From the NCBI RefSeq assembly GCF_910592395.1, contig NC_088310.1:22017501-22081500 (forward strand): a DNA stretch of 64,000 bases. Direction: 5' to 3'. The notes beneath the pieces were generated by a model. The model was not told the origin of the DNA. It did not search any database and saw only the letters and a list, made by a program, of their open reading frames with translations. Both the position numbers and the translations under genes were made by a program. Source of the stretch: Lineus longissimus. Its lineage: Eukaryota; Nemertea; Pilidiophora; Heteronemertea; Lineidae. Numbering within the stretch: position 1 is the first letter of the stretch; every line of letters starts with the position of its first letter. Of the stretch, positions 17,879 to 57,494 are shown in pieces.

Positions 17879-18300
17879 TTTGAAAACATGTACATATCTT
17901 AGTCGATCTTAAATCCATGGACAATCGAGTCCATCCGTTCGTTCACTCTTCCTAAAGGCTTGCGACTATATCACTGCATTTGCCGTTTTGTTTTACTATT
18001 GCCCTTGGTTGGAAGTTTTGATTCACAGTGGATGCTGTCCTCTGAATGAAAATCTGCAGCGAGAGTGTGGTAAAACCTGTCAACTAGAGTACAAGTACGG
18101 ATTTGGAACGCACAGTACCACTTAAAGCATACTCTTGATACTTTTCGACGCCTTGGGGTTGTTTGACAGAAATATCCATTCACATCATATAATCTATTTC
18201 TGCTGAACTAAAAGTATCGCCAATTCGTATCAACATTTCAACTAGCCATTGACCAAACATGCGGTAATCATTTTATTAGGTTCTTATAAGTCGATCGACT
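17879..18300. other. Intergenic, no supported gene
   Basis: Upstream flank of GPCR copy 3 (minus strand). No coding sequence or repeat that I recognise. Confidence 0.4.
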
Positions 18301-25107: not shown

Positions 25108-25174
25108 ATGACCCCGAAGACGGTCATCCTAGTCCTTCTGCTGGCCGTGGCTGTCAGGGAAGTCGTGTCCAAGA
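25108..25174 (+). other. Exon 1: signal peptide
   Basis: ATG opens MTPKTVILVLLLAVAVREV, a short positive N-terminus followed by a strongly hydrophobic core, then VSK and a donor AAGA|gtaagt in phase 1. The start is the first ATG with this property, and the next exon joins in phase. Confidence 0.85.
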
Positions 25175-28100
25175 GTAAGTCAAAAGAAGCCGAAAACACC
25201 TGTCCAAGGGTTCTTGTTTGGTGATGGACTATTTGCTTTATCTATCAAATTCAATGTTCCCCTTCTTAGTATCTGCTCTTGCAGTATCTTCTAGATAAAA
25301 TTATTATTTAGAAGTGATTACGCTCATATTCTTTGCGCTGGGAAATTGAATCTTTACAACCGACACATCTACATCCATATTTCACGTTTTTTATCTTTTT
25401 TTGCGGAATGGTAAATAATGTGCATACGACGTGAATGCATGTAATCGAACTTCTGCTTGCCTCAGGTCAAGTTATCGAATGACCAACCAAATTCTTGTGG
25501 ACATCGCCACCGCTCATTTGAGATTCGAACCTCCAGTGAATATAAACTGTGGGTAATGCAGAGACCGACCGAGTTCCTTTCTGTCGTAATGACGAACCCG
25601 GCTGGCTCAAACGTGTGCCCACAAAGATATACTGATGTGGATAGCAAATAGGTCATTGACGCGGCTATTAAGTATCAATCGTGTCTGGTCACCCACCAAA
25701 CTCGGTGCCGCAAGTTGGACATTGGAAGTCAGCTAACCTCAGTGAGTAACTTTGGGGAATCTTCCTGTCCACTTTCGAAGTGGTACAAATTCCCTCCTGA
25801 ATAACTAAATATACATACATTTTGTTTTTCTATTTCACAAAATATTAAATCAGCTGTTTCTAAGTTTGCCTCACCAGTAAGCCAACCGACGTGGTATTCG
25901 TGGTGGACAGCTCCAAAACCATCGGTCAGTCAACCTTCGAGCAGATAAAGTTCTTTCTCCACTCCCTCGTAAGTTCTTTCCTCATCGGAAAAAAGTACAT
26001 CCAAGTCGCCGTCGTCCGGTACTCATCCAAGGACAGGATCAAAGCGTATATCAAGCTTGGCTCTTTCAACAGACAGGACGACCTTATGGAGCGTATTAAC
26101 AGCATGACATACGATGGAGGAGGTTCCTGGACGGGTGAAGCGCTGAAGTACGCCCGGACCAAGATTTTCTCTTCAAACAACGCCCGGCCGCATGCCAAAA
26201 AGATCCTCGTCATTCTTACTGATGGCATCGCCAATGATATGAAGCGGTTCGACAGGGAAGCCCAAGTCTTGAAGGCAGCAGGTGTTATCATTTTTGTAAT
26301 AGGGGTGGGACACCCGAAGATGTCGGAGGAGTTCGTTGATGCAGCCAGCCAGCGACTCTCGGCGCATGTTTTCAGTTCGTCCAAAAAGAAGCCTTTGTCG
26401 GCTGACACTATTGAAGTAGAAGTTGCAATATGTGAAGGTAAGATGTAGTGTTGATGAGGTCACGACTATGCTCAATTGCAAGATATATAATCTGATACAA
26501 GTAGTTACACTAGCTTCTGCACAAGCTCTGCTTCATAAGAAGACCAACTATGATTTTTTGTAAAGAACAAGACTTCATTCATTAGGGCAGGCTAACGAAA
26601 CTGGCTAACTGATAGATCTGTTCAGTGCAGTGGCAGTTCGTTCGCAGGTGATTTGTTTCTCTAGCACCAATCGTTCTTCCAAAACGGACTACATTGAGGA
26701 CGTACCAATTAAGTACGGCAGCTAGCAGCTAAGGTGTCACTTGGATCAAACAACCCTAAGGTTGTGGCAGTACGACACCAATCCGGATCATTGGGATATA
26801 ACCATATTCAAGGTTTTTGAGTTTTTGAAGAATGAGCTTTAAACCTTTATATTTCGCTGAAAAAGCTTTGAGGGGTGCATATTCAATTTTGTTTTGGGCA
26901 AAACAAATTTCAAACGCAAAAAAGCTTCAAGAGTGCTCCCTCACGACGTACCAAAAACGACAATATCAGGAATCTTTATCTATTTGCAGAGATGTCCTGC
27001 TACAAAGGGCATCGATGCTACAATCGGCGGAAACCCGGGAAACACAGCACGAAGCATGGAAAGAGTAAGTCCAACCAAAGGTATCGATGTAGATGTGCCA
27101 GGCCCAACTTCTTTCTCAGAATTCTGCTTATTTTTCTTCAAACTTGGTTATGGTGAGCATTTAATTTTTGATCGCAACACTGTATGTTCTAAGGAGACTT
27201 TCTTCTTTGTTAGTCTTAAGTGTATCGTCTTTTTTACAAGCGGCAATAATCTTAACAAAGTCGAGTAGTTATACTCCCAGCTACGAATGTAGCATCTCAA
27301 TTAAACATCGGTCTGAACGTAATGATAGAGGCAAATGCGATAGTACGTGAGCGTCGGTACGAGATTAAATAGCACTTTTTTAAGACTATCTGTAGATTCA
27401 TCTATCCAGCAGGTGAATGATAATTTGAGCTTGTTACTTGATAACTCTGGATATTTTATTACATCGTAATGTTATGATATCCAGAATGATAAATTTGCAA
27501 ACTGTCCAAATCTATTCAAAAATGCATTTAGAGGCATGTGTAATTTGATACAAAGAAGTACTAAAAACTGGTTTGCCACCATCAAAGTTGCACTGTTTTG
27601 ATCGGTGTGTCTGAAAGACACAATAATCTTATGCTTTCCCTGTGTAACACCAACGCATTTTTGCGTTTCAGATGTGGCGAAACCCGCCAAGGCTGCAGGC
27701 GTGAAAAGTACGTATTACCTATCACCGAATGAACGTGTCTGTTTTTAATGTTAGGCTATATGAAAACCTTTTCTATTGTCCGACACAAATAATCATCAAA
27801 TCCGGTGTGACAGGGACCAAAGACCTACTGTATCTGTTGTACGACATCAAGCATACGTCATTTTTTAGACTAAGTCCCACACCTCATTTAAAGTTAATGA
27901 ACGATGGAATAGGGCTATCGAAAGGGCTGCATTGCAAAACAACAGGCCCTATTCACTATCCATTGGACTTGAATGTATAGGTCATTTTACTTGTAATCCT
28001 TTAAGTGAGTACCGTTTGCAATAGCTTATTCGAATTTAGTTTCAGGTGTAAAGAATAAGAAGGCGCTTTTGGCTGCTGAGTTGAACATAGCAAAGAAAAC

Positions 28101-31100
28101 CTTAAAAGGTAAAGTAAAAATATATCTCTGCATTTTATAACTGAATGCTGGAGTGTCGCAGGTTTAAAAAAATAATGATAATACTAATTCATTTGACCTG
28201 TTTTATCATTACTATTGTCATTATAACTGATATGTTTTATATGTATGTACTAAATGTTTCATCATTGTTAATGTACATGCATTGTTTGGGAAATGCATGT
28301 ACATTAATTTAGCACTTTGATCCTAGTAAATTATCATTATTTGATAATCATAACGAACAGCCATTTCCATTTTATTTTAGGACCAAAACTAAAAAAGTTA
28401 ACTACTCTTTTGACGAAGTCGGCAGGTGTCTCTAAAAAAGGCAAAGCAGCCAAGCTGACTAAGAAAATAAAAGTTGGCAAATTAGCTGCAGGGGGTAAAA
28501 AAACAGTGGCATCAATGGGCACAGCGAAGGGTACACCACCAAAAGGCGCAGCGAAGGATGTAGTGATAAAGGCTGGAGAGAGCAAAGTGAAGGCTGGTGC
28601 AGTGGGAACGAAAAAGGTCTCAGTATCAGGTAAAGCTTGAGAAACAGCTCACTGCTGGCGGCAGTTATTCTTGATAATAATCATCAATTATTCTCGATAA
28701 TAAACACGTCTAATTATTCAAGCTTTCGTTGTTTCTATATTTTTGTCAAAATATTGACAATCATAGAAATTGTGTTCGTTCAATTTGCAGGCAAAGGCTT
28801 TGGAAAAGTATTATCGGGTGCGTAATATTTTAGTTAGTCGTGATTTTTTGCCAAATGGAACGTTAGACTAGTTAATTAATTGTTATACATGTACATGTCT
28901 ATATTGATAGCGGTGCACCTAACATGAAGATACTCATTTTATTATAACATTGGCAAAGAGACCAAACCCTTCTTCATCGATCAGCAATTGTTCTTGAATG
29001 TATAAGCTCAAAAACTCTTTCATCTGTTATTTCAGCCGGGAAAACCTCCAAGGTTTTTGCGAAAGGTGAGTAATTGAGAGAAAAACTCTCGCACTCAGCG
29101 GCTGGCGCCAGAACATGCCTCCACCGCGCGAGAGGCACAGAACGTTGTATATGTATTTTCAATGGCTTGGTTGGTTGCACGTACGACGTGAGCAACCGGT
29201 ACCGAATTTATCGTTAGCAGTGATCCTGAGTCTTCCCAAAAATAAATCTTACCATCTTCTCTAATTTCTAGTTGCAGGCAAGTGTCCTCCGACATACAAG
29301 AAAGAAGGGAAGGAATGTGTGAAGAGGAAGAAAATCATTGGTAGGTTTACGGTGTCACATCTAGTATCATATCACATCACATCACTTCATCTTAAAACAA
29401 TTCTACAATATGCATTACCCGAGGAACCAGTCAGGCAGGGATCAAATTTTTGCGCCAGTTGTCATTAAACCGGCGAGTTGTTGCCAATTCGGAAGTTCTG
29501 TCAGCGACTGAGTCTTACATAAGGTCATCCCACTTCGTTTCAGATCTTAAATGCCCCGTAGGCGGCACCAAGGTTGGAAAATTCTGCACCTACAAATGTC
29601 CTAAGGGATGGACTCGAATCAAGAAGTTCTGGTGCCACAAGAAGACCGTGAGGAAAGAGGTTAAAACACTGAGTAAGTCATCTCTTGTGTGGTCGTTGCT
29701 TCAGACAATGGTGCACTTAATTTCAAAATAACTCTTTTCTTGGACATTTTTTCTCGCTAATAATGCTGATAACAACGATTGAATGATTTACTGGGTAACT
29801 TTATTAAAGGATTCAGCAATCAAACGAGTTTGAATGATACCACATTTACTGATAGGGTCTCTACCTCTTCGAGCCCGCACTTTTTTGTCATTCCGATTGC
29901 GTTCTTTCTCTATGCGATCATTTGCATCTTTTTAAATTCTTTTCAGGGAAGGCATGTCCATCCGGGTTGCAACCGGTTAAAAAAGGAGGAAAGCTGGTGT
30001 GTCAATTTAAATGCCCAAAGGGATCGAAACGAATAGGATTCCTATGTGTGAAGAAAGTAGTCAAGAAAAGTAAGTTCCCGTGAATGTGTGCATAACGCAT
30101 ATTTGAAAACTGCCTGTTGCGAATAGAGGGGATACATTTTATGTATTGTTTTGAACTGCTTTATTTTACCAAAAAAACAAGGAGGTATTTTTGTATTTGC
30201 TGTTGAATTTTGAACCATATACTAAATAACGGTATTGACTGTTTTATTTCATACTCTCTATATCTGTGTATCTTACAATTAATTACGGTACTTTGTTTTG
30301 CTTAGATCAATGTTGTCCAGCAGCCAAGCACAAGGGAAATGAGTGCATCTTTGTTTGTCCTCCGGGGTACAAACGAATAAAGGATACATGTCATAAAACA
30401 ACTGTTACCAAAGGTAATCGATGGGGCCATAGTGGGGGTGTACTGCCCCCAGACAGGCCTCACTATCAAATGTGTGTTTCATGCAAATTTGGCATGAATG
30501 TGGCAAAAGGGGTTTGTTTAGGACCAAAAACCTATATACAGGCAACATTCCTCACCAAAAACATGGCTGAAATATTACCAGAACATCATTGGATTCCCAT
30601 AGGAGGTCCAAAACCAACCGCGTTCGGTCACGATTGAATGTGCCATAGCATGAAGGTAATACTAGCCAAAAATCATTAACTTGAGCACTAGCCAGTTATC
30701 TGTTGAATTTGCTTTGCGTCTTACCTTTAGTTATCTCCTTGAATGCCAGTCACAAAATGGACAAATTCCTTCTCCGTACTTTGTAATCGGCAATCTCTCA
30801 CACCCACCGAAAGCAAGATTCAACAACGATTAATACCGTTCTATTCGGGAATCTGATTTATAAAAAAAAAGAAACAGACTGAGTCTAGCATATTTTTGTA
30901 ATTCCAGTGACTCTTTGCCCGAAGAATATGGTCAAGAAAGGTGATAAATGCGTTGGCAAGTGCCCCACCGACTTCGTCAGAAAGGGTGGTATCTGCATAT
31001 CTAAGTGCCCACCTGGGTACAAACAACAAGGCGAAAAGTGTATCAAGGTGATAACCAATCACAGTAAGTTTAATTTGGGGATGATAAGCAATAGATAAAA

Positions 31101-34100
31101 CAGCGCATGAAGCTATAACGGTCCGATGAAGCCATGCAGACTGATGGTGAATGGAGTTGTGCTTTATATTCAATGTACATGTACATAAAGCCATGCCGAA
31201 AATCTCGAAGAAATGAACCATAGATGCCATACAATCATGCAATTCTCGTCTTTATAGAACCAGCGATAGCAGACCGAATTTGAATAACTGACTTAAGTCT
31301 GAATGGATGTTTGTCATCTATCTACTCGCAGACAAGTTACAAAGCTATCAGGCAATGTCAGATTCGAACATTGCGTTTATGTTGAAAAAAAACACTTAAT
31401 ACATCTTCTTTTAGAAAAAATATGCGCCGAAGGACTGAAGAAGCTAAAGGGAAAATGCCTACCATATTGTAAAGAAAAAAAATTCAAATTAAAAACGGAT
31501 GGATTCTGTGAACACATTACTATTAAGATAATTAGAATCAAAATAGATAGTAAGTAAATTTTTATTTTTATTCACAGTGCAACAAGTCTTAAGCCGCTTT
31601 TGACATTGATGGAGACCAACAGCGTCGGAGGGTCTCTGTGTTTTTATTGGGGGCGGGGGAGGGGGGTCGAACCACATTTGTCCTTAGAAAAAGGAAGAAA
31701 TGGATTAAGTCAGTCTTCGAAACTACATCTAAGATGGCCATATGTTGCAATATATAAAGGTCGAAGGGCCTGTTGAATCCATCGGCATAGCTTCCAAATC
31801 CTGCGAACGTAATTGTATGTGGATTCGTTTAGCTTTTCCTACTTTCTAACAACGCAATGCATAAACACCTATCTTAACTAATTCCAGTGAGGTGTCCGAA
31901 AGGCTCCATGCTCTCGCTTGGAAAGTGTTGCCCTCTCGGCTTTGTCAACGTCAAGGGTAAAGGCATTTGCTGTCCAAAGGGACAGGAGCCAGTCGGTCCA
32001 AATAAATGCTGCCCTAAGGGAACGAAACTGTTCCAAGGCCAGTGCTGCCCACCGGGTACCAAAGTCATCAGGGAAGGATCTTGCACCACGCCGCCAACTG
32101 TGCCGCCATCCAAACCACCGATCCTGGTTACGACTACTACCACCCGGCCCGGACAATCAACAACCACAAAACGTAGGTAGTTGTCCTGGTACCAACAAAT
32201 TTGTACTCAGGGATATTTTCAATGATATTTTCAAAAGTATACATCCACTATGTTTATAGCTGCAAACATACATTGTATGACACGCGTATATTGGTAGTAC
32301 CTTTCAGCACGGCAGTAACTACCTTAACAAAAAAAAAACTGGTATGGTTGAGTTTTTATACATGTATACTTTCAAAATAATAAGAAAAAAATATTGGTCG
32401 ATGCGTTTTGGGTTGGCTTTGGTGCCCAATTGTTTTACGTCCTGTTGTATTAACTTCAAACTATTATTCCAGCGAAGTGTCCTAAAGGTTACTTCAAAAC
32501 GGGCACAATGAGAAAATGTTGCAAGATTGGTACAGTTTGGTCGGGAGGCAAATGCTGTCCAAAGGGCACTGTCCTTATCAAGGGCAAATGTTGTCCACCT
32601 GGAAGTAACCCGTCTGGAGGCCAGTGTTCGCGACCACCACCTCCAAAGACAACAGTCAAACCAAAACCAGGTACCACAGTCATGACCATAAGTAAAGCAT
32701 GTTCCTGCGCGTTTCCTAAGGGCGATAGCGTTTGACATCTCAACACTTTTTTAAATCTCGTGAATACAAATAGCCGGGTTGCAAAATTCACTCGACTTGA
32801 GAAGCGCGCTCATGCCACAGCTTATTTATCACGGAGGTCAATCGAATGAATATGGTTACTGGGCTCAATAGACCTGCGAAACGATTGTTTAAATGAATTT
32901 TTAGTGATTTGTAAGGACTTCTTTCACCTCTCAGTTTAACCAGCCACAATAGATTATTGCGTGTCTGTTGCTACCGGAATTCAGTTCCCCACAGTACGTA
33001 GTACGCCAATCGATTGGTCACCGTGCTTATGGTCATGTCTGTAGGTCTAATCAGTCTTCAAAGTAACTGAAGAAATATAAAAATCTTTGCATCTTTTGTA
33101 TTAGATAAAGTTCAATCATGTCAATAGATTTCACTCGTATCTAATACAAAAAGTGTTAATATTTATTTACTTTAAGACCCAACACCCTTAGAAATAAAGG
33201 TTTTGTGCTTTTCAAAAAGCTTTTATGGTTTTTCAACCTACAAAATTGTTTTTTCAGAGAACTGGAAAATCTCTATGGTTTTGTTTGTGCTTGTTAAACA
33301 ATTCAGCTTGTTTTTAATATCCCTGAATTTTTAATATCCCCCTCAACAGAGTGCATATCTCTGTTAGCTAAAAAAGCTCTAAAAGGATTTCTGAAAGCTA
33401 AAAAAACTTTATTTTAAGAGTGTGTACAGAGAAGAAAATTAACAGATGGTTATCATTTCGATGATCTTCGTATCTTGATCATTTTTTTAAGTTACTTGGA
33501 TGGTTGAATCGCTGAGTCTGTGGCATTTTGTTAATGTTGCTGCATTTCGATTGAAATAATCACCGCATTATTACAGTTCCGGTGAAATGTCCAGAAGGTT
33601 CTGTGATTGTAACCGTAAAGCCTATCATTACAACGACATCAACGACAACGACCACCACCACCACCACCACCACCACAACAACAACCGTAAAACCTGGGAA
33701 AACGACAACGACCACAACAACGAGACCAGGGTTGACAACACTAAAGCCAAAATGTTGTCCAAAAGGAATGATCCTGAGTCACAACGAGTGCTGTCCGAAG
33801 GGTCACCACTTTACAAATAAACGATGCTGTAAGATTGGCCTGATACATGTAGGAGGTGGAAAATGTTGCCTAAAGGGTTACAAAGTTCTCAAAGGGAAGT
33901 GCTGTCCGCCGCATATAAAATCTCTAGTTGGAGGAAAGTGCATGAACGCTCCAACACCAGGACCTACGGTGAAGCCTGGTACACCAAAACGTGAGTACAC
34001 CGTTCTCTGTCAGTTTTGGTTCATGTCCGATCAATCTTCCACCTTCCTATACATATATTGGTAAGACAACGCTGAGTTGTACACACCATGCCCTGTACGC

Positions 34101-37100
34101 CTACTAATTTATCAACTAGGGCCGGGTTAGCAACTCTCTAGTTGGCAGCAACATCTGTTATGTATTCAGCTTCACCTGAAGTGTATTGACTCCTCTTTGA
34201 AATAATCCAGGGGCATCAAAAAATAGAGCCAACATTGACGACAATGCTGCTTGAATTGGCAACTGAACTAGTCAGTAACTTTGAGTCCTGAAATACTGCT
34301 AAGTAAATGCCTTTGCTGAAACATGATTCATTGTTTCCTTTCAAGCGGTCACACCATCTAAATGCCCACCTTCCAAAAAATGTCCGCGTAAGTAATTTAA
34401 GCAACTCAAAGATAAATTACGTATATCACGTACATCAAATATTACTTCTAGCTTAGATGGGAAACGCTTCACTATCTGTAAGCCATTTCTTATGGTAAAT
34501 AGCAACTGTGATATAAAACCAACATCAACAACAACAGCACTTTCTAACAATGAGCCAGATGTCAAGCGAAATACGGAGAGAACCTGATATATAACCTGTA
34601 TATGGAGAGAACCTGATATATAACCTGTATATAAGAACCTCCTCCTTTCCGGTCTTGATTTAGTACAGGGACCCACGAGTCCGGTGTTAAGTCATACTAA
34701 TCATAATACTGCTGATAACTGATTTCTTTGAACAGATTGTCCAGCCGGACTAGTTTGGATTAACAAGAAATGTGGTAAGGTAGTCAAATTGTAAAAGTAA
34801 AATTGCTCCTCCAATATGCGTTTGTGTGATTACATGTACTAAGTGTAAAAAAGTTTCTTCATACTAAAATACCGGACAGCATCATGCTCCCCTTCTAACT
34901 GATCACAAATGTTTCATATATTCAAATAAAAATTTGCGTTTTTGTAACGTTTTGAATCATCCCCAATTCATGCCAGTCATTGAGTCATTGACAGGGAATC
35001 ATTGACAGGACCAGGCTAACATACGCGAGTGCGTTGGGTAAGCATAAATTTTTTAAGAAAAAGAATCTTGTACGTTATTTAAATCATCGACTAAATAATG
35101 TTGTATATATTAAAATTTTCAGGTTGTCAGCCTCCATTAGTGCGACAGGGAGGGAAATGTGTGCCTAGTATGTATCATTGTTTATTTTACTTAATATTAT
35201 TCATTATCATTCCCACTCACTGGCAACTATGCTATTACAGTATCGTAAACCACTCGCCAGCCAATCAACATGATCCATTATGGCTTGCGGATCCTTTGTA
35301 TGTAGATGGCAGGACCACAAATCATACCACATTTTGCTGAGAAAAAAATGCTTTAAAAAATAACTTTGGTAGCGAATGTATGACTGTCAATTGTGGCTAC
35401 AGTATTTTATATACTGAACTGATTCTATTTTCACAGAATGCGCTAAGCCGATGATATGGAAGGGTGGCAACTGCGGTAAGTGGAAGTAACTCATCTCCTA
35501 AGAATGCTAAATCCTGCAACTCATGATTGAGATTGTTCTCAATGCAATCAAAAAAGACCATGTCTGATGACGTCAGGAGGTTCAAGAGGTTGTGGCAAAA
35601 GCAATAAATATTTGTGGGGTGTTGATGCCTATTTGAACTCTGTACCATAAAAGAGAATATAGCAATTTATATGACGACAATTTGCTTTACATGAATTGAT
35701 GTTGTTGCTTTTTGTTTTTTGTATTTCCAGTTTGCCCAGGTGGTATGACGAAGATCAACGGGAAGTGCCTTACTGCACCAAGTAAGGAAGAGAAAATGCA
35801 CACATTGAATCAAGGCCTACGCTTTTTTGTAAATTGTTTTTCTCTGCACATAAATAGAACATGTTGCTGTGCATTAACTAAAGAAATGGACTTTCCTATA
35901 GTTTAATCTGATATTGGTTCACACAGAAGCAAGCGTGTATTTACTGTTTTGAAAAATCGCAATATTTGATTTCAATTTTTAAACGAGTGGCGATGTCATG
36001 GCCTTCAAGAGATTGTGTATGAAATAACGCAGATGCGTGAAGGAGATACTGTTGCTTCATGGTAAGTCACAAACACGCCCAGTGAAAATATATTTAACTG
36101 TCCTCAACCTCCTTTGCGGTTGTTGGCAGCACGACGAGAGACACATACAGTGTCCATAATGTAATCAAGACTTTTTTCCATTTTAGAATGTGTACCACCA
36201 AGAAGTTGGATAAAGGGCAAATGCTGTAAGGCTATCTTTGATTAATAGCGTTGATCCCTTTTGGTAACAAGTCATAACTATGATTTGACGAAAATCGGAT
36301 GGCATGTGATGCTGACAGTAGGGACAACGCTGATATGAGCCATTAAGGTTCATCCACGCATTTGACCAAGACTATCAGTTATAACTTCTTGGAAACCTTG
36401 GCCCGGTTTTAGCATGTTAGCTCATAACATCATGATGACATGATCGTTGTTATACATTTACATCAATAAATGAAACGACACGTCAAATAAATCGTCCAGA
36501 TGTATTATCATGTACGTCACTTCGTAGTAACATATAATGCTTCTTCTTCCAGCATGCAAGAAGCCGCTAGTATTCGTCAATGGAAAATGCAGTGAGTAGC
36601 ATTTCTAGGGAAGACTTAGTCATCTCAGTCGAAACTTACATGCTGTTTACAACTTTGCCTAATAAAAATTACATATGTGTATATACTGGCGGTGTGTTTG
36701 CAAGAGTAAGCCAAATGCTGGGAGCGAATGTTTACTCATCACGTATACTTAAAAAATATCCACCAAAGACTTCTCATCAATACTTTGACATCGCCTATCT
36801 TTCAGTTTGTTCAAAACCATTGATTATGATCAAGGGGAAATGCCGTAAGTTTACGAATATTTCCGTCATATACTTTCGTGTGTACTTTAGTTTAGCTAAT
36901 TTGAATCGTACTTCTAGTGCCGTACTACATGCATGTAAAATGTAGCTACATTGTACGAATACGACTCTGTGAAATTTGATGTGTATGATACGTGTAGCTT
37001 GATGGTGGATATCAGAATCCATTTGTTGCCAAAGGTGTTAAACATTGGAATTCGCTGTGTCTTCGTTTTATAATACAGGTGTGGCATGTTTATTTTTTAA

Positions 37101-46100: not shown

Positions 46101-49100
46101 AAGTACGTTTCATCAAAATGTCAAATTATTATCAAACATCTGTACATGTATACCTGTGATATACCTACTGCTTTTGCTAGCTCGATGGTTCAGCATGTGG
46201 AATTACCCAGTAACGACCAACCAAACAGAGACTTGCGATGTTGAAAAAGTGGTATATCATGAACGGACGTATGTCGTATGACTGCTACAAAATAGGTTGG
46301 GTACAGTAGATCAGTAATTCTACATCATGAAAGCATCCAAATAAGCACTACATACATGTAGTGATTCTTTAGTATTTTGATTTTGCCAGATATACTCGGG
46401 ACTACTAACGTTTCTCTGTCTGACAGTACGCATTCGAATAGAGATACAGTTGCACGGCCCCAGTTGTAGCTACGAAATACTTCACTCCTGAGGGAAAGAC
46501 ATGGGGAGAAACTCTGAGGACCACCCACACAAGCGAGACGAAGAGGTACTTGCTTGTACAATCTGTTGCGTAATATTCCCTATTATCATCATATCTTGGA
46601 CATTGCATACAACAAAAATATTATTAAACGGTTTTTGGTTATGATAATCATTCAAGTTGACAAACAGTCACCTGAGGACAGCATTAAGTCCGCGACATCA
46701 CGTGACCTATCCGGGACGAGTCAGGAAACCAGGAACTAGTCGCCGTCAGAAGTAAACAATAAGATGTCCACATCCTTTGGTGTTGCAGTCACACAAACTA
46801 CTCGCTAGTCCGATCGGTTACAAAGATTGGATTTTATTCCATCTTGTTTAAGTATTTCAACCTGTAGTTTGCGCTTAAGGCCCCTAAACGTGGTACACAT
46901 TGACCTAAAATGATAAAGCAAGTCGTTTCCTACGATTTCTTACATTCTACATACATACCATTATTTCGAAAAGCACAACGATCATCATGGCACAAAGAAA
47001 CTGTCTCTTCCACTTTAACAAAAGTGTAGAGAAATATCAAGGCTAACACCAATTTAACTTGCCGAGTTTGTCATATCGTTATTTTGAACACGACGTGAAA
47101 GTAAATTTAGTCCCTTGAAGAAGCTGTTCTACTGCTTATATACGCTATTCTTAAATGACGGGTTGATTGTGATCTTGCAATATCATTCCCCGGACATCTT
47201 CTCCAAGCAGTCTAAGTTGCCTTTCATACCATCGAGAAATATGGACAGCTCGACGATAAGGCGGATGAAGAGGAGAATTGGTGACAACACGCAGCTGCAA
47301 GCACACGATGGATTGAGTTTACGGGTACGTTGATATTATCATAACATCATTCGTAGTTCACAAAATTGAAAATCATTGCCAACTTTTTCCCGCAAATCTT
47401 TATCTGTGGCCCGAAGTATGAATGAAATGTAGTCATCACGTAGTACATGCTTCGGACCTCCATTTCTGCAGGAAAAGTTTCAATCAAAAACAGGTTGAAA
47501 AAAAGGAAACGTCACTGAGTAATCAATCTATAGTGGCCATATTCATATTAACCTCAGTATCAACACTAAAACATGCTTTACACGACTTCTCTTATATACA
47601 TGATTCTGCAATGTGTCGCGTTACTGTGTAACTGCTACCTCTGCACTACTTTTCAATATCTTTCTGTTGTTTCTTTTTCAAAAGACAAAAGCACCTTCAA
47701 GTTTTGCGAGGTAAAATGAATCTATAAAAACGGATATCACAGAACTGATCACACGCTCGCTTTTAGATCAAACAATCCATACTTTCCGAATACGCCTTTC
47801 TCGCAGACGAGTGAGTATAGGTAGTAAAAATGGATTATTTAAGGCCATGATTCAGACAGACATTGTTCTTGTCTTCAGATGGAAAGTGTCCTATTGAGAC
47901 GAAGAAAGTCGGGCTGCAGTGTGTCATTGAGAGAACAAGTAGGTATCATAATATACCTTGAGATTATATCCCACCCAACTGATTTTAGAATGTGAGTTTC
48001 TCTGGCCTTGTCACGAAAGGTTATTCGAAGTCGCACGAAAGCTCTTGTTCGGTATTTTAAATTTGCTACAGGTAACTGATGATTATGATTGTCCAGACCC
48101 GTTGATGGCTCTGAATTAAGAAGTCAGATAAAGTCTTTTCCTTAACAAAATTGTTCCTATAACCTTTGGGATGTACACGATTGTGTGATAACGCTTATCA
48201 TTTTGAATTCCTGATTCATATTTTGCTCCAGATATGGTCTGCCCGCGGGGTTATCGAAAGTTTCAGGACACGTGCATGGTGAAATGTGCGGAGGGCTTCA
48301 AGGAAATGTTCGGCGTCTGCTCTGCACCGATGAAACCAAGTATGTATAATGCGTAACACCAAGAGAAGTAAACGAATAATACTATATGTGATATTCTATT
48401 GGCAGCACTGACTTCGAAATTACGTTTTATACATGTACATGCATGTATTAAGTTTTATTATGAAGAAGTTGAATAGCCATACGGGGATTCAAAAAAACGT
48501 TTTCCTGTAATTGTGTCAATGTACATAATGCACTAAAAAAATCTCCTTTCAAATTCGAAAGCGAAATCGAGACATATAAAAGGGGAAAACCAGCCTGCGT
48601 GCGTTCTGCAAATTGCCTCTTCAACACGCTTTTGCAAAATTTCGTTTCAGTCATGGGTTGCACCATTGGGAAGAGTGTCGGCAACTACTGTGTTTTCAAT
48701 CCAGTCGGTAAGTGCATGGAGCTTTATTTCTCAGGTTCGCCTTTTACGGAGGAAAGGTTAGAATGTTTGGGAATACGAGAAATAATCTTATCTTGAAATT
48801 GTTTGACGATTGGCAATTAAGTTGATGATGATTCGTATCTTTCTTTCAGCGAAAACATGTCCAGTGGGTTATGAATTGACAGACATGGAATGCTTGTTGA
48901 TATGTCCCCCTAAGTTCCACCGTGTTGGAAGATCATGTATTAAGAAACTTCAGCACATATCACAAAATCAAAAGGAAGGTAAGAAAAACTGTTTGTGATA
49001 CAGACAATATATTTCATGAAAACAACCCTAGTATCTTGAACAGTACTGCTTTGTCAGAAAATGCGATTTTTTATTTGCAATAATTGAATTGATAAATGTA

Positions 49101-52100
49101 CAATGTGCCAGTGCTACATGTACCTTTATTAAATTACCGAAAACACGAAGGGAACAATATTGGAGTCTAGTATTTGGAAGCAGGGCTAACGTTCTTCTAC
49201 TACATTTTTCGCGACTTACCCCCTCCTTTTTGATTCATCGTAGGTGGAATATGTCCCAATGGATCTACAAAACTGAAAAATAAATGCTATTTTCGGATCA
49301 AAGGTAAGGCTAACGCGCTTTAAAGTTAATTGGAAAACCATCGTTCACTCAATTAGCCATTCCATTCTTTCTGATGTTACCAAGTACAGGTAGTTAAAAG
49401 TTAGTAAGGTGTATTTGTCATCTCTTTCAGACATCAGGTGTTCCCGATATTATATTAAAACAGGCTCGAAGTGCGTAATTCAGTGTCCCAAGGGGTATGC
49501 CCAGAGAGAAAATCGATGTTGGACTCTGCCTCTTGCAACAGGTACTTTTGCACATTCCATCTAAAACATCTGAGATCAGGATATTTGGCACCGACTTATG
49601 CATGGTGCCTCAAAAGTAACCAACATTGCATTCTATAATTCTTAAAGGACTACGTCCCATACTCTATAAAGGTGAAGCATCAGACATTGCATTTTGTGCC
49701 GTGTACATTCGGTCCACACTTACTTGATTATAATATTGTTATCAAATATCTCTTGCAGGCTGTCCGTCGTGGACATTATCATCAGAGGATCAATGCGTTC
49801 TTAAGATACCAAGTAAGTATTGACTGTATATACTAAAAGCCACTGACCATCCTATGTACATGTATGCTATCAAACAAAATCATTACTCATAAAAATTGCT
49901 CTCTGCAATAAATGCTGCCTTGTGAACATCAATCATTACTTTGTAAATCCTTAATGTGTAATGAAAGCCATAACCAATGATACTTGTATAAGTATATCTG
50001 TGACATAGACCAATCAAATGCATTTCAACTTTATTTTTTAGATTTCGCATGCCCAAAGAATTTCGACAAGATCGATGGTGGCTGCATAAGACGATGTCCA
50101 CTACCATTTGTAAGAATCGAAGCTTACTGTTGGATGGATGTTCAACAGACGCCTGCAAACCCAGTGGAGAGGACTGCGACATATGCAGGATTAAAGGAAG
50201 AGACCCAGGCATCTGCAAAATCTGCTAAACGATCAGAAACAGATTCGAAAGAAACGAAGAAAGATTCTCCTTCAACTTCTACGAATTCGAAAAGAAAGAA
50301 TGAAAACTCTTACAACTCGGTGAGAAAGCTAACACCATCTCCAGATTCAATGGAAAAACCTGCATCATCTTCAAGCTCAATTATGATACATTCAGGTACG
50401 CCAAAGTTGTCTGATGAATCTATTAATTCAAGCAAGATTGGTAATGGGGTTGCAGCGGTTACAAGCAAGAACAATAAAGGCTTTCGCAAGGTAATAAAGA
50501 ACGTAATGCGAAATCCAATTTTTAAAACTATTGAAAGAGAGGAAGTAAAGTTGGCAAAGTTATTTACCAAAAACAAGAAGTCAGCAGGGCTAAAGAAGGC
50601 AATACATAAGGAAATGGAGTCCCAGTTAGCGAAGGGCTTTCAGAAAAAAAACATAAGCGTCAAGGTTAAACATCCAACAGATGCAATCAAATCACGTGAA
50701 CTTGTTCCAAAGAATAGGGCATCAGGATCAAATGGCAAGACTGAACAAAATACGGTGACGAATATAAAAAAGGAGGTCAAATCAAAACGCCCAACAGATG
50801 CACTTAAAGCCAGTGAACTTGTTCAAAAGAACAATGAATCAGGTGTACACGGTAGCAGTAAACAAAAGTCGGAGAGAAATGTCAAAAGTAGAGAAAGGGA
50901 AGTTTCAAAGAATAACATGTATAAGGGTGTATGGAAGAAAGATGCGAAAGGAGAGTTCAACCCACTGAACTTCCTGCCGAAGAAAAGTGATCTGTTGCCA
51001 CCTCCTTCTAACAAAGATTCTCGAGCAGGCAAGGTTAAATTCAAACCGGCCAAAACATCAGTATCGGCTCGCGCTGTTAAAACGGTGCCGAAAGGTATAG
51101 TGACACCGACATCAACGAAGAAGAAAACACAAGTTGCGATGCCAAAAGCTGCTGGGCCTGCTGTTTTGAAAATAAAAGGTAACCATGTAAAAGGATAGCA
51201 CAACTCCGCCTCCTTATTGTTAGAAGTTTCTGTGGAAGTGACCCTTTTCTGAATTGTTAATGTCAACAGTAAGACTAGTTTTCTTCTCTTCATCGAGTCG
51301 GGTGAGATTCGAGAGATGAGAATTGCGATTGTGTGAGGCAAGCCAGATGCTTGAGTGTAAAATATGCTTTTAGCATTAATTATCCGGGTAACGGAACTTT
51401 GAGTTGTCCTTAAAGTAATGAAATGAGTTTAACCCACACCAATATATCGCTCCATGTGCTCTGCTCCAAGACTGTGTTCAGATAGCACAGATTACTATCG
51501 TTTTAGTAATCTTTTACATGAAATATTCGTAATAATATCACTCCTGAAGAGAACCGCTAGGAACAGTCCACACTGGTGACAGAGCTTGGTGTAGTCCCTG
51601 GTAAGTTGATGTTTTCTCCGAAGTACAGTACTTGAGAAGAAGATCAAATTTAATATCATTTACGCTTGGGGGTGCATTCTGTCTGTCCATTTTATCTATT
51701 TTCATTTTAAATCTCAACATAATATATGGTTAGGCCTACTGCTGGAAGGTTTCTAGATTTTCACCTTTCTCGCAATTTTATGTTTCAATATTGATATCAT
51801 CTCCAATTGCGTGTTGTTTTCATTATTTCCTAATTTCCTTATGTTGCAGGCTCCATATGTGCGTCAGGCACCTACAATAAGGGAGGCAAATGCCGGGTGA
51901 TCTGTCCCACCGGGTTCATCCCCAGTAACAGCTCGTGCTATGGCCGCCCAAGTAGCAAGCGTAAGTGTTTGCAAGAACATATGCACATTACAAAATTCAC
52001 GAAGGATACGATTTTACAAATGCTGGTACTCTATGTTTTTGTTTGAGTTGTAAAATTACACTATAGCTCTTAGTCGCAATGGATTGTTGAATACACGAAA

Positions 52101-55100
52101 CCATGACATGTACTCTCATCTCTCATTCATTTCTATGTACCGTTATGTGCTTGCCGTTCACGCTTCCTTCCAGTGACGAAGTGTCCTTCCAATACCCTGA
52201 AGGTGGCCAATCGATGCGTACTTAAGAAACCACGTAAGTCTACTTTAATGTAACCCAGGCGGTATCTTAACATGTCAAAAGTTTAACGGAAATCCTACAG
52301 TTTGAAACTTAACTTTTAAGAGGATCCAGTTTCAGAATCGCGCAAAAATCCTACGAGATTCAAAAACCCATTGGTCGTTTCAGTAAAGTCGTGTTGGTAC
52401 CATGTTCTATACAATTAATCAGCGAATACGATGAGAATCTCATTGAAAAAATGTATTCCAGAGTTGCGCTGTGATAGTGGCTTTGAGAGGGTGCACCGAA
52501 CCTGCTTGCAGAAATGCCCAAGCGCCTTCACAAGATCGGGGAAGGTTTGCCTCATGACGAACATGCTTTCTGGGAAAAAGTGCCCAAATTTATCTGTGAA
52601 AGTTGGGCGTCGATGCGTGATCAAGAAGCAGAGTAAGTGCATGAGTCTGACGGAAGGGAATGTTCTTTTACACCCTTCTAATGGCAGTCTCTGTAACTTG
52701 TGGTTCCATTGGTCGTGTCGATCGTATAGGAAGAGTGATGACGTCGTTTAACGCTCATTTTGGAAATCAGATCCTCCTATTTCTTTTTGCAAATAAGGTT
52801 CTCAGAGCTCTGAAAGTATAACAGTAGGGATGTGTTGGTCCTTTGAATAAATAAAAAGCAATCACACACATCAGCTGAGCACATGTTCGGGATTTTGATC
52901 CAAAATGGAGTACGAGTAACAGTAGGAATAATATTCCTTGTTTTGTTGGCTTTTTTCTCTAGAAATTAGATGTCCACGCGGCTTCGAGAATTACAATGGA
53001 AGATGTCGGTACCGCTGTCCGAGAAAGTTTTACCGGAAAGGGAATCTGTGCTTACGGACGACAAACCGTGAGTATCACTTATTGTAACAGCACTTCCCGA
53101 CCCGCACAGTAATACTTTTGCTGATAAACTCGGAGTAGACAGCTTTCGGGAAGGTATGTTCTTAAATCGTCCTTCAAGACATGTATTCGCAGGCTAATAA
53201 AAAAGTAAAGGTAAGAGCACAGCATAGTTGCACTAGTTAAATTCTTTGAACCTTGATTTTTCACGGATATGTAAATAGATCGTTGTAAACAAGCACCTAG
53301 CACCCAGCACAAATCTGTAAATGCACCACATGTGTCAGAACTATTTCTCGACGAATAAACACACATATATATATAGACCGAAATAGGTGTTCGTCACTCT
53401 TACAATCTAATTGGGTTATTTTTCAGTTGACTACAGATGCCCAAAGGGAACCGACCAAAAAGGAAAACTATGCGTTTACTCACCAGGTAGGCTCAGGTAA
53501 AACAATTTGTGGAGGGCTTGTGCCAATAAAGAATACTGATTTCCTATCAAACGTTCATGTAACTAGTCAACCAATATTTTATAATGCTCCCTTATTACTC
53601 TTTGGTCCAGGTATAACTTTACATGCTACAATGTATGCTTGATCATTGGCAATGGTTATTGGATCTTTGTAATTGAAAAATGTTTCACCGAAAAAAAATA
53701 ACCTCATTGGCTAGACCGAACTATTCCACTGTGTGAAAATATCTCGGTCAAGGTCGAGTGTAATAATATTACACCTGACCTAAATAACTTCAATATTCCA
53801 GCGATCTCCTGTAAGAAGGGTTACGACCTCTACAGGTTAGAATGTCTGCCAAAGTGTCCATTAGGTTATTCTCGCCTTGGACGAATATGTAAGAAAACTG
53901 ATGCGAAGACGGCGGTCAGGAAAAGCAAAGGTGGACCTAAAGCCCCAGTCAACCTCGCCCTGAGGATGAAAGCCTGGCAATCGACCACAGCAAAGAATGC
54001 TGTAGCAGGCCGGGCGGTAGATGGCAACAAGAACACAAACTTCAAAAAGGGCACGTGTACGAGAACAAAGGACATCAACAAGTATCATCATTGGTGGGCA
54101 GTCGACATGACGAAACCTCAAACAGTCCAGGAGGTTGTTTTGACTAATCGAGGCGATTGCTGTGGTAATTCACATTCATATCCAGATCAGTACCACCTCA
54201 ATTTAGTTGCCTACGTTTGACTACACAAAAATATTAGCCTTGAGACTACCAATACAGGCAGGCAAATAGCTAAAGAGTTTTAAAAGTAGGCGAGAGGGTG
54301 AAAGGGTCCAACTGCACTTTTAAATATTTGACTGCAGACGTTCATAAATATCACCCGCCTCAACGTTTTACCCAGCACAAAATGCTTAGAAGCCTCTAAC
54401 TCGGTTGTCCTGGCGTTAATGCCAACGCCGTCTTTAGTGGTCCTTGATTACCGAGGGCTTGTCTAAAAGAAAGCCTGGCAATGTACACATCTACAGGTAA
54501 AAAAACTCTTTTAATTCATCGCAGGTGATCGCTTGGAGGAGTTTGAAATTCTTGTAACAAACAAACGCCCAGGACCGATGATGATGCGGTCCAGCTTGGA
54601 AGAGCGTTGCGCCAATCAGGACAAACCTATGAAAAAAGGCCAAACGTTTCGTTTTAAATGTCGGCGACCAATGCAAGGCCGTTACGTGGTAATATGGAAG
54701 GAGGATAACAAAACTCCTCTGACTTTGTGTGAGGTGGAGGTATATGGCGTAGGAGGCCAGGATGCGGGTGAAAGCAAGAGTAAGAAGCCCCACAAGACGA
54801 AACGTGTAAAGGGTAAGTCATGTTTCAGCATATATTCAAATGCACTGGCAACTGATGCGAATCTTTAGCACGCCATGTCAGGCCCAGTCAGCTTAAATAT
54901 GAGTAAAGGGGCAGCTGACTTTTTGCATTTTGTTTTCTTCTCGATGAAATCGTTTCTCCGATAAAGTAAAAGCCGAATCCCACATTTATAAATTTCTGAA
55001 TAGGATCAAGGAATAGGACTTTTCTGCAACTTGTCCATGTCTCGTCTCTTTGGTCATTTTATGAACATGTCCTGTGTACCGAGTGGTACTCTTTTGCTAA

Positions 55101-57494
55101 TTTTATCATGCAGCTGGCAATGCTCCCGCAAAGAACAAGCGTCATCCAGACTACGCCAAGCTTGGCCCGAACCTTGCCCAAGGAAAAAAAGCAAAACAGA
55201 GCTCTACAGTGAATAATGGCGTAGCATCACGTGCGGTCGACGGCAAAAGGTAGGTGAGACGCCAATAGACGAGGCTGAAGCCATCCTAATATTACCACTC
55301 AAAGGACCAAAAGCCGTCAGGGGTGATACGATTGCAACGTACACTGAAGGCTATAGATACTTATCAGAAAGTTACCAAACTCTTAACCCGCACCAGACGC
55401 ATAAGATCTCCTCCGTTGGTGGCATTCGGGTTTACTAGAATTAGACCTTTTCCTCAGAAATGCAAAAGCAATCAACCGTTCAAACCATTTCAGAAATTCT
55501 GACTTTTCTAAAGGATCTTGTACGATGACAAAGACCATTCCAGACAATAAGAAAGGGTACCATTGGTGGAGAGTGGACCTTGGAAGGTCAAGGAAAGTCT
55601 CAGTTGTGTACATAATGAACCGAGTAGACTGTTGCGGTAAGTGAAATCCGAGAAAATACTGGTAAGGAGATGTTTCCACAGATTGAGCAATGTAGGTAGG
55701 CATAAGCATTCCTCTTAAGAAAAATTGCGACAGAGACGTAAAACAGAAATTAATTCATTGGGGAACAAAAATGTCAATATATCATCCGGATAGGTATTCC
55801 ATATGTGCAGTTACTTAATTTCTCACTGTCTGTAGCAAGTTCAAATATGCATGCACCTTTTCAGCTAACCGACTACACAAGTTTGAAGTCCTCGTCACCA
55901 ATAGTGACCCAAGTGATGGAGACGTAAAACCAATCAGCACAAATACCTGCGTTTCCCGGAGTGCTCCAATGAAGGCAGGAGAAGGCAGATTCTTCCGTTG
56001 CAAAGAGCCAGTTTCAGGCCGCTATGTCATCGTAAGGAAACGGGATAGAACTTCGTCTTTGACGCTTTGCGAGGTCGAGGTGTACAGCGGAAAATTAAAA
56101 TGGCGTGAGTCATAATACATCTACATGTATAACAGTTTTGATTTCTTATCATAAACCAGTGTCATAAATAAGGCTTTGTCATACTTCATAGGAAGCACAC
56201 GACTTAATGTGTTCGATGTATCTAAAGCTATACATGTACAGTATTTTGAAGCCTTGGCTCGTTTCATTCCGCAATATTTTCCTCGCTGCTGTTGCTCACT
56301 TCGTCTGGCCTTCGTTTTGGTAGGGTCATTTTTCAAATTTCAATCCAAGTGTTAGTCTGTCTTCACATAACACATATCAAATAACACCACTGCCCGTCAT
56401 CGATCAGTATACCCATGCAAGAATACTTAGTAACCTCTTTACAGAGACGACAACCCCAAAGGTGACAGCGCTTACCAACTTGGCTAAGAATAAGAAAGCT
56501 TACCAGAGTTCCACCTTAAATGGCGCTGTTGCTGGTCGAGCCGTTGATGGCAACAAGAGTACCACCTTGCAGAGCAAATCGTGCTCAGCGACACAAAATA
56601 CAGCGAGACACAAACATTGGTGGGCGGTGGATCTCGGCCGAAAATACAAAGTAAAGTCTGTGAAAATTGCGAATTGTGAGTGTTTCTGTTAAAAAAAACT
56701 TCTAAAGCATGCTAAATGGATTTTTTATGAGTACACATGTGTTTATTTTATATCAGCATCCAATTCTCACCGTTTTCTGAAATTGTAATCGTGTGCCTAT
56801 CCAAATAGTAGCCTTTGCGAAGTCACAGTGAGGAGTAATTGGTGGTGTTGGTCTCGACACGCATTCTCATGCCTTGGTGAACATAGCCAGTCCATCAACT
56901 ATCTGAGTGACAGGGGTTTGGGAATTTCAAAACCGAAGTGCAAGTGCTGATTAGAAAGTGATTCATTCATGTACTACATACTAGATTGTTTCACTCTTTA
57001 ATGGAAGAGGTTGGTTCGTCACGATCTCAACTTCTCTACCTTTTAGATAAAAATCTGGTTAACTTTGAGGTGGCGGTCTCAAACAAATTGCCCAATGCGG
57101 CCACCTTCAAAATCGACCGCAACGACAGATGTTACTACAGCGTCTCGGCCCTCAAGAAGGGAAAGACCAAATCCTTCTCTTGCTACAGACCGATGGTAGG
57201 ACGATTTGTTGTCATCCGCAAGAAGGATAGGAAGACACCTTTGGCCCTGTGCGAGGTGGAGGTATATGGTGAAAATTTGCCATCTGGTAAGTACTGTTGA
57301 TCTTCCAACTATGTTGTATGATTTCCTTTCTATTCATTTCTAATAGATCAATACTCCGAGAGGTTACACGTGCTTAAAGGAATCATTTGTTCCCGGAATA
57401 CGCTATCCCGAAGCAGATGGTCCCACCACACCCGGCGTATAAACCATTGGTATAATGTATATGACCATCGTATCCACTTATTCTTGCAGGCTAA
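25108..57494 (+). CDS. Giant secreted VWA / Cys-rich module / F-type lectin protein (about 65 exons)
   Basis: One gene of about 2829 aa inferred from a continuous chain of splice-compatible exons, detailed in the block entries below. Order: signal peptide, VWA, Lys-rich linkers, Cys-rich modules with a Thr-rich linker, a run of microexons, more Cys-rich modules, a long Lys/Ser-rich segment, more modules, three FTP lectin domains. All internal junctions are GT-AG. Every intron is phase 1 except one inside the second lectin (phase 2). The summed exon length is divisible by three. No other signal peptide or poly(A) signal was recognised between the first exon and AATAAA at 57707, so one gene is the simplest reading. 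The weakest link is the 2.6-kb intron after 45303, where two genes could abut. The architecture suggests an extracellular matrix, mucus or adhesive protein that binds glycans; I know of no named family with it. Confidence 0.75.
25865..26437 (+). other. Exon 2: von Willebrand factor A (VWA) domain
   Basis: A single exon codes the whole domain: CLTSKPTDVVFVVDSSKTIG at the first strand, GGSWTGEALKYA, then KKILVILTDGIAND and IIFVIGVG. The metal-ion-dependent adhesion site is largely intact: DxSxT (last Ser replaced by Thr), the Thr of SWTGEA, and the Asp of LTDG. It resembles matrilin/collagen-type VWA. Acceptor ...tttctaag and donor GAAG|gtaaga are both phase 1. Confidence 0.92.
26990..29065 (+). 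other. Exons 3-8: short Lys/Ala-rich linker exons
   Basis: Exons 26990-27064, 27672-27707, 28046-28108, 28381-28629, 28791-28817 and 29036-29065, all phase 1-1. The first has two Cys (SCYKGHRCYN) and a basic tail. The rest contain no Cys and are rich in Lys, Ala and Gly, for example KLAAGGKKTVASMG. Two are tiny (27 and 30 nt). They probably form a flexible basic spacer between the VWA domain and the Cys-rich modules. The smallest exons are supported only by splice sites and phase. Confidence 0.65.
29278..33990 (+). other. Exons 9-17: Cys-rich modules with a Thr-rich linker
   Basis: Exons 29278-29340, 29544-29672, 29947-30069, 30306-30413, 30908-31063, 31415-31549, 31888-32172, 32473-32670 and 33577-33990, all phase 1-1. 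The recurring pattern is C-P-x-G-(5-8)-G-x-x-C, for example CPKGWTRIKKFWC and CPPGYKQQGEKC. Exons 15-17 carry CC-P-x-G variants (KCCPKGTVLIKGKCCPPG). Exon 17 also has an ACC/ACA run at about 33630-33720 that codes a poly-Thr stretch, probably O-glycosylated. I do not recognise the module as a named domain; spacing is shorter than EGF. Confidence 0.8.
34575..34632. repeat. 29-bp tandem duplication
   Basis: Two perfect copies of a 29-bp unit beginning ggagagaacctgatatata, in the intron between exons 18 and 19 of the VWA-lectin gene. Confidence 0.85.
39068..39702. mobile_element. Fold-back (long inverted repeat) element, 635 bp
   Basis: The outer 29 bp are perfect inverted repeats (39068-39096 and 39674-39702, starting CCTGAAATGATTTTATTTGG). 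The inner arms continue to match imperfectly for about 270 bp each, for example agctacagccaaat, cacacgcaggcgaaca and gtcagattacact against their mirrored partners. The centre contains ctccaattaattgg. No target duplication is clear and no coding frame is present. It lies in the intron between exons 31 and 32 of the VWA-lectin gene. Confidence 0.88.
40986..45303 (+). other. Exons 34-44: Pro/Lys linker and Cys-rich modules
   Basis: Exons 40986-41105 (Pro/Thr/Lys linker without Cys), 41453-41551, 41881-41937, 42200-42325, 42677-42733, 43041-43148, 43638-43694, 43965-44138, 44400-44567, 44846-44905 and 45196-45303. Modules alternate between four-Cys (CPGKFYKRVGGKCVMICPKG) and two-Cys (CPKGAKRVGNRC) types in a roughly regular long-short order. 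At the last exon the donor is AAAC|gttagt; if it is not used, translation ends two codons later at KR-stop. Confidence 0.78.
45304..47878 (+). other. 2.6-kb intron without recognised exons
   Basis: The longest intron of the gene. I looked for further Cys-rich exons with phase 1 splice sites and for a signal-peptide exon that would mark a second gene, and found neither. The open frame at 47115-47333 has no hydrophobic start. The modules on both sides are of the same type, which supports one gene. Confidence 0.5.
47879..49812 (+). other. Exons 45-51: Cys-rich modules
   Basis: Exons 47879-47938, 48232-48339, 48651-48707, 48850-48978, 49244-49303, 49431-49541 and 49759-49812, all phase 1-1. They alternate one-module and two-module types: CPIETKKVGLQC, then CPRGYRKFQDTCMVKCAEG, and so on. 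The third exon starts with GC rather than CP (IMGCTIGKSVGNYC). Confidence 0.78.
50042..51178 (+). other. Exon 52: long Lys/Ser-rich disordered segment
   Basis: This 1137-nt exon is about ten times the neighbouring size. It begins with a Cys module (CPKNFDKIDGGCIRRC), then about 340 residues rich in Lys, Ser, Asn and Thr and without Cys. An internal duplication is visible: HPTDAIKSRELVPKN and RPTDALKASELVQKN about 40 residues apart. It ends at AAAG|gtaacc in phase 1; an unspliced reading would stop seven codons later. It is likely an unstructured basic linker between modules. Confidence 0.85.
51850..53486 (+). other. Exons 53-57: Cys-rich modules before the lectins
   Basis: Exons 51850-51960, 52174-52233, 52462-52632, 52963-53067 and 53427-53486, all phase 1-1. 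They include CASGTYNKGGKCRVICPTG, CPSNTLKVANRC and CPRGFENYNGRCRYRCP. The third exon codes three modules in a row. Confidence 0.8.
53802..54812 (+). other. F-type lectin (FTP) domain 1
   Basis: Two exons, 53802-54164 and 54525-54812. The first begins with a last four-Cys module, then the lectin: NLALRMKAWQST, AGRAVDGNKNTNF, HHWWAVDM, TNRGDCC. The second continues GDRLEEFEILVTN, FRFKCRRPMQGRYVVI and LCEVEVYG. R-x-D-x4-R of the fucose site is present (RGDCCGDR). The His that normally precedes WW by seven to ten residues is Arg here (TCTRTKD). Family role: calcium-stabilised binding of fucose. Confidence 0.92.
55114..56104 (+). other. F-type lectin (FTP) domain 2
   Basis: Three exons, 55114-55249, 55494-55636 and 55865-56104, because an extra phase 2 intron splits the first half. 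Landmarks: NLAQGKKAKQSST, SRAVDGKRNSDF, GYHWWRVDLG, MNRVDCCANRLHKFEVLVTN, GRYVIVRKRD and LCEVEVYS. R-x-D-x4-R is kept; the sugar-binding His position is Met (SCTMTKT). The join through AAAAG|gtaggt and ttcag|AAATTC restores the family alignment exactly. Confidence 0.9.
56445..57494 (+). other. F-type lectin (FTP) domain 3 and end of the gene
   Basis: Exons 56445-56675 and 57047-57286, then a terminal exon from 57490. Landmarks: NLAKNKKAYQSST, AGRAVDGNKSTT, KHWWAVDLG, FEVAVSNK, GRFVVIRKKDRK and LCEVEVYG. The R-x-D motif is gone: the segment reads IANYKNLVNF, and the His position is Ala. If CTG|gtaagt at 57286 is spliced to 57490, the stop TAA follows after one codon; without splicing the stop is at 57298-57300. 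Both give nearly the same protein. Confidence 0.88.

Follow-up and report, generated by a model that had tools for sequence, protein, structure and literature searches.

A 64,000-nucleotide stretch of the genome of the ribbon worm Lineus longissimus (contig NC_088310.1, positions 22,017,501 to 22,081,500; hereafter the window) is best explained as containing a single gene for a secreted, basic, 309-kDa multivalent cross-linker, a reading to which we assign a probability of roughly 0.55. The curated model has 64 exons on the forward strand, from 25108 to 57494 (~32 kb), joined into a single stop-free open frame of 2832 codons. The encoded protein likely consists of a signal peptide, a VWA domain, three F-type lectin folds and, between them, 78 modules of two cysteines each together with linkers rich in Lys and Thr. 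An earlier sequence-only reading of the same DNA, made without database searches, had proposed one long frame of 65 exons and about 2829 codons; the long frame stands and its two ends fit the rebuilt gene, with the counts corrected to 64 exons and 2832 residues.

Gene model and splice support

The gene was rebuilt from the DNA first and compared with databases afterwards. We chained exons by phase-free dynamic programming, using generic splice weights and a codon table, with phase left untrained; all introns are GT-AG by construction. The chain scored 669.7 on the forward strand, against 56.0 on the reverse strand and 9.6, 12.5, 20.5, 26.1 and 33.6 for five dinucleotide shuffles, a contrast inflated to some degree because exons of this gene supplied part of the training set for the codon table. 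It contained 65 exons over a slightly larger interval and 64 when cut at 57.6 kb, and it picked the start codon at 25108 unaided, which was then confirmed. Symmetric 1-1 exons made up 53 of the 64 in the chain, whereas no control of the six had more than two (range 0-2).

The modules themselves mark the same interval. A six-frame scan of the whole window found the pattern CP..(G/F)...C 44 times on the forward strand and 5 times on the reverse. When we required acceptor and donor sites in phase 1 flanking a two-cysteine module, the forward strand gave 41 candidate rows (four of them alternatives that overlap others, leaving about 37 distinct places), every one within 25-58 kb; the reverse strand gave three, none of them in that interval.

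The curated model keeps 54 of its 64 exons exactly as the unaided chain had them, the ten hand-curated ones being micro-exons that the chain skipped or exons with shifted starts or ends. A database search with a 503-residue lectin query then returned one protein identical across the entire query, the uncharacterized LOC135484852 [Lineus longissimus] of 626 aa, which matches residues 2207-2832 of the predicted protein letter for letter. This agreement supports ten splice junctions, including that of the 5-nt last exon, all of which were in the draft model beforehand. We had adopted the 5-nt exon (acceptor score 5.0, preceding donor 6.6) because it agrees with the end proposed in the sequence-only reading, and LOC135484852 later concurred. 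It likewise concurred with the replacement of chain starts 52970, 53437 and 53836 by 52963, 53427 and 53802. Four exons of the automatic chain were dropped (26631-26647, 26990-27152, 51583-51600 and 53193-53210), and donor 38938 of exon 30 was rejected for the in-frame stop after it, donor 38974 being used and a second module gained.

Support varies along the chain. For exons 3, 4, 6, 7, 17, 33 and 46 it is limited to the scores of splice sites and codons or to a weak match to the module, the exon 30 donor is weak (-1.7), and the exon 2 acceptor at 25865 (-5.1) was preferred to 25878 (0.3) on account of phase and of a cysteine preceding the VWA domain. Low-scoring splice sites, together with a loop lost from the third lectin domain, are what might be expected of a chance assembly or a pseudogene whose decayed exons no longer encode protein. 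However, the frame is stop-free over its whole length, the chain score lies far above the controls, the modules retain their two cysteines, and part of the sequence is already annotated as protein, and we consider this explanation very improbable.

Table 1. Exons of the curated gene model, in window coordinates.
Feature	Position	Strand	Content	Support or remark
Exon 1	25108..25174	+	Start codon, signal-peptide-type leader MTPKTVILVLLLAVAVREVVSK; ends in phase 1	Leader scan: one of two candidates
Exon 2	25865..26437	+	VWA domain, one Cys before and one after	Pfam VWA
Exons 3-7	27672..29065	+	Lys-rich linker (24% Lys)	Surest exon 5 (28381-28629); 3, 4, 6, 7 weak
Exons 8-13	29278..31549	+	Cys-module block A, 1-3 modules per exon	
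Exons 14-16	31888..33990	+	CC-type modules and Thr/Pro-rich stretches	
Exons 17-32	34346..40630	+	Micro-exon ladder, mostly one module per exon; eight exons exactly 39 nt	
Exon 33	40992..41105	+	Pro/Lys-rich linker	Splice and codon score only
Exons 34-50	41453..49812	+	Cys-module block B; holds longest intron, 45304-47878	
Exon 51	50042..51178	+	Two modules, then long Cys-free Lys/Ser-rich stretch	No Pfam family
Exons 52-56	51850..53486	+	Cys-module block C	LOC135484852 start inside exon 54
Exons 57-58	53802..54812	+	The final two modules; F-type lectin domain 1 (Arg at the His site)	
Exons 59-61	55114..56104	+	F-type lectin domain 2 (His site Met)	
Exons 62-63	56445..57286	+	F-type lectin domain 3 (His site Ala; RxDCC loop deleted)	
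Exon 64	57490..57494	+	5-nt last exon, Gly and stop	AATAAA at ~57706

Two repeats lie within the gene. In exon 51, a 112-nt direct repeat (50659-50887; two copies 117 bases apart, 71% identity) is an old internal duplication within the Lys/Ser-rich region. The intron between exons 30 and 31 carries a 718-base fold-back element (39027-39744) with five nested inverted-repeat arms, 81-100% complementary, which is probably a transposable element.

A VWA head and three F-type lectin folds

The predicted protein has a mass of 308.6 kDa, a pI of 10.0, 192 cysteines, 10 NxS/T sites and 16% Lys, with a net charge of about +436 after the leader (K+R minus D+E). The Lys content and the signal-peptide-type leader agree with the earlier proposal of a Lys-rich extracellular modular protein. 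The profile searches proposed at that time also identified both domain types. Exon 2 matched Pfam VWA (PF00092) at 137.8 bits (cut-off 23.8), and the nearest solved chains are collagen VI alpha-3 and mussel proximal thread matrix protein 1 (PTMP1). The three F-type (F5_F8C) domains scored 71.6, 59.1 and 56.2 bits (cut-off 27.8), and F-type lectins headed their structural matches.

PMC5712786 gives the fucose motif of F-type lectins as HX24RXDX4(R/K) and their cation motif as hhDGx, where x is N, D or S. The histidine of the fucose motif is replaced in every domain (Table 1), at columns that hold His in 28, 29 and 24 of 37 relatives for domains 1-3, respectively. RxDx4R is retained in domains 1 and 2 and is absent from domain 3 through a 5-residue deletion. 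The cation motif fits in two of the three domains, reading AVDGN in domains 1 and 3 and AVDGK in domain 2.

Just past the exon 62 donor, at 56670-56692, Cys-Glu-Cys-Phe-Cys can still be read in frame before a stop, at the place that RxDCC occupies in domains 1 and 2. This segment is probably the decayed remains of the loop lost from domain 3.

A ladder of two-cysteine modules

A greedy count of C-x9..12-C units gave 78 modules, 66 of them 12 residues long, close to the roughly 70 small Cys-rich modules proposed earlier. A structure model predicts a hairpin fold for them. A profile built from 16 exon pieces matched R-spondin-2 in the PDB at E 8.3e-6 (best single stretch, i-Evalue 0.0025), which is moderate evidence because of the Cys content. 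The modules are not wholly new: they resemble single hairpins of furin-like/R-spondin repeats and perhaps also of TNF-receptor repeats.

In the stretches tested, they stayed below every Pfam cut-off. Pfam tests covered the modules other than those of block C and exon 16. In these stretches no EGF, TIL, antistasin or DUF match reached its cut-off, and we rejected those identities; the best EGF-type scores were 18.5 bits for EGF_MSP1_1 (cut-off 27) and 13.1 and 12.3 for cEGF (cut-off 26.6). The best furin-like score was 15.1 bits for Furin-like_2 against a cut-off of 28, with none in three further module blocks. Two blocks were compared with NCBIfam, and the one match (MXAN_6577-like, 20.5 bits, cut-off 100) was taken as composition. 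Foldseek with the module model returned nothing at E 0.001 or better, and structural matches to virus and phage fibres, with rmsd values of about 5-8, were not taken as relatives.

The micro-exon ladder might be alternatively spliced into a large family of secreted rods differing in length, charge and lectin number. We raise this because 60 of the 64 curated exons are 1-1 and because a module exon typically encodes between one and three hairpins, each complete in itself, and think it quite improbable; if true, length-tunable rods would let the worm adjust the mechanics of its mucus or glue.

One gene or several, and what the protein might do

One secreted, Lys-rich, Cys-rich modular protein is the simplest reading, and a single transcript for all exons is, in our judgement, probable. 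The earlier reading had taken the common frame as support for one gene. That support proves weak and non-independent, because symmetric 1-1 exons chain in any subset, and we rejected a shared frame as proof. Better evidence comes from a scan of 24.9-54 kb for first exons (a hydrophobic leader followed by a good phase-1 donor), which returned 25108 and one candidate inside the VWA exon, with none on the reverse strand and no other free-standing signal-peptide start on the forward strand.

Several observations speak against our overall interpretation. The public annotation has a separate protein starting within exon 54, and symmetric exons join whatever the gene borders are. Across the longest intron (2575 bases, between exons 43 and 44) the share of Lys drops from 19.5% to 10.9% and that of acidic residues climbs from 1.8% to 6.7%, a shift resembling what a gene border might show. 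The VWA metal-ion site, whose full motif is DxSxS...T...D, reads DSSKT, SWTG and TDG; these two conservative changes from the consensus suggest an altered site. The canonical fucose motif is kept in none of the three lectin domains, and the arginine loop (RxDCC) is gone from domain 3, which weakens the earlier proposal of a glycan-binding protein, although other sugars may be bound. Finally, the main text of a proteotranscriptomic study of the toxic mucus of Kulikovia alborostrata, another heteronemertean, focuses on toxins and does not contain the terms von Willebrand, vWA, EGF, mucin or discoidin.

The first of these points could mean two or more adjacent genes that belong to one module family and have separate promoters, the first encoding the VWA domain, Lys-rich stretches and modules, and the next encoding modules and the triple lectin (LOC135484852). 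Such an arrangement would accommodate the separate start, the default chaining of 1-1 exons and the composition shift, as well as the fact that our searches met no public protein spanning the N-terminal part within 715-2275 aa and no full-length one within 1558-4956 aa. However, LOC135484852 begins at an internal Met, mid-module and without a signal peptide, although proteins with disulfide modules and lectin folds have to be secreted. A protein so rich in disulfide modules that stays inside the cell is implausible, and LOC135484852 looks like a 3' fragment. A downstream gene also finds no free-standing signal-peptide start past 25108 up to 54 kb, and terminal-exon candidates with a poly(A) signal are not clearly more frequent on the forward strand than on the reverse (11 versus 8). 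We regard separate genes as unlikely.

For the single protein, we infer secretion, disulfide pairing and a rod. Its N-terminal VWA domain would dock on a partner in the matrix, for which a collagen-type protein is the likeliest candidate, and the ~78 single-disulfide beta-hairpin modules would stack into a long rod. Lys-rich linkers would attach to mucins or polyanionic glycans and supply sites for cross-linking, while the three C-terminal lectin-fold domains would make the far-end contact, their sugar specificity changed or lost. The whole would cross-link mucus, an adhesive secretion or the epithelial matrix in a multivalent manner. The combination of a head that would bind matrix, a rod held by disulfides, positively charged linkers and three tails with a lectin fold points to mucus or matrix of negative charge as the material that is cross-linked. 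We hold this role at somewhat less than even odds, and each binding step is likewise tentative. The published context is indirect: mussel PTMP1 has two VWA-like domains and binds collagen (PMC4754843), and fucolectins, mucins and a VWF homologue are raised in the proboscis of a different nemertean (PMC9132205).

The earlier reading had listed mucus, adhesive, shell and immune roles. Shell is dropped because the host is a ribbon worm, mucus, adhesive and matrix roles are favoured, and immunity is kept as a rival. A soluble innate-immune pattern-recognition protein would bind microbes through its VWA and lectin domains, the rod giving reach and valency; F-type lectins serve in immune recognition (PMC5712786), and three lectin-fold domains with basic charge suit binding to microbial surfaces. 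Against this, all three domains lack the canonical fucose motif, Pfam searches found no protease or effector domain, and the size and Lys content look structural; we rate an immune role as unlikely.

The protein might instead stay within the body wall, in its extracellular matrix or basement membrane, with matrilins and AMACO as the comparison for its role; a VWA domain nearest to that of collagen VI would suit this. However, the stretches tested gave neither an EGF nor a coiled-coil match above cut-off, and the lectin domains and charge fit outward secretion at least as well; we rate an internal location as rather unlikely.

Searches for the architecture

The database searches reached proteins within set length windows that share words with the query; the modules by themselves were not among the queries to the large database. 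The last 730 residues gave 104 matches among proteins of 1558-4956 aa, all of them listed, with PF00092 among the precomputed domains of none (tables read by eye), and the 503-residue lectin query gave PF00092 in none among the 120 matches listed of 2870 shorter ones (again by eye). The N-terminal 1300 residues gave three matches among proteins of 715-2275 aa, a collagen VI alpha-3, a Macrostomum protein and a Nematostella protein; each covered 14-18% of the query and had a VWA domain, and none had the module ladder. The unfamiliar combination of VWA domain, module ladder and three lectins noted earlier was thus not met within the length windows searched, and the architecture appears new within these limits, its ingredients known. 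As for the earlier claim of an undescribed gene, it holds, within the same limits, for the architecture; the modules have known structural kin and the 3' part is annotated as LOC135484852.

Literature searches found no paper naming LOC135484852 and none combining F-type lectin, VWA domain and invertebrate; where they were aimed at mucus lectins or adhesive proteins of nemerteans, most of the papers listed dealt with toxins.

If all exons form one transcript, the locus encodes a secreted protein with a domain order unmet in our searches, from a large gene only partly represented in public annotation. It would also illustrate cleanly how a protein rod can be built up, one exon after another, out of a 12-residue hairpin, a unit that seems otherwise to occur within larger cysteine-rich repeats. 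It is a concrete candidate for a molecular basis of ribbon-worm mucus or adhesion.

Other features of the window

Upstream of the gene, on the forward strand, an open frame of 949 codons (6995-9844) consists mostly of His/Glu/Gly repeats with a non-repetitive tail at its end, and another (11695-12501) matches phosphatidylethanolamine-binding proteins at 19.9 bits, short of the cut-off of 24; the two are possibly parts of one secreted His-rich protein. On the reverse strand, three tandem long open frames (13133-14392, 14655-15773 and 16820-17908) share long near-identical stretches. The first is a rhodopsin-family G-protein-coupled receptor by Pfam (7tm_1, 67.6 bits), and the three are a local receptor cluster. 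Adjoining the 3' end of the gene, reverse-strand frames at ~59384-61050 carry the zinc motif HEIMHALGFFHEQSR, which we take to be of the astacin type. No known RNA families or tRNAs were found within the window.

Comparison with known systems

The domains and modules of the predicted protein have relatives. Among solved chains, its VWA domain is nearest by sequence to the matrix proteins collagen VI alpha-3 and PTMP1. Unlike collagen VI alpha-3, the worm protein has no collagen helix; PTMP1, with two VWA-like domains, was not found to have the worm protein's other parts. The modules find hairpin kin in furin-like/R-spondin and insulin-receptor Cys-rich repeats and possibly in TNF-receptor CRDs. 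In contrast to all of these, they are lone two-cysteine units, mostly of 12 residues, repeated ~78 times, often one per micro-exon, and below Pfam cut-offs in the stretches tested.

Tandem F-type lectins are known from eel agglutinin (1K12) and striped bass MsaFBP32 (3CQO), and multi-domain F-type lectin proteins from fish, birds, hemichordates and the nemertean Tubulanus polymorphus. The worm domains differ in the replaced histidine (R, M and A), in the missing RxDCC of domain 3, and in being attached to a VWA head and a putative rod of modules. Flatworm adhesives bring together lectin and von Willebrand-type domains with small Cys domains in large number, and Mlig-ap1 is flanked by Gly/Arg/Lys repeats (PMC9229212). 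Like these ap1-type temporary-adhesion proteins, the worm protein is large and predicted to be secreted, with many small Cys domains, lectin domains and a von Willebrand-type domain, but it has VWA in place of VWD/C8/TIL, unclassified modules in place of EGF, and F-type in place of C-type lectins.

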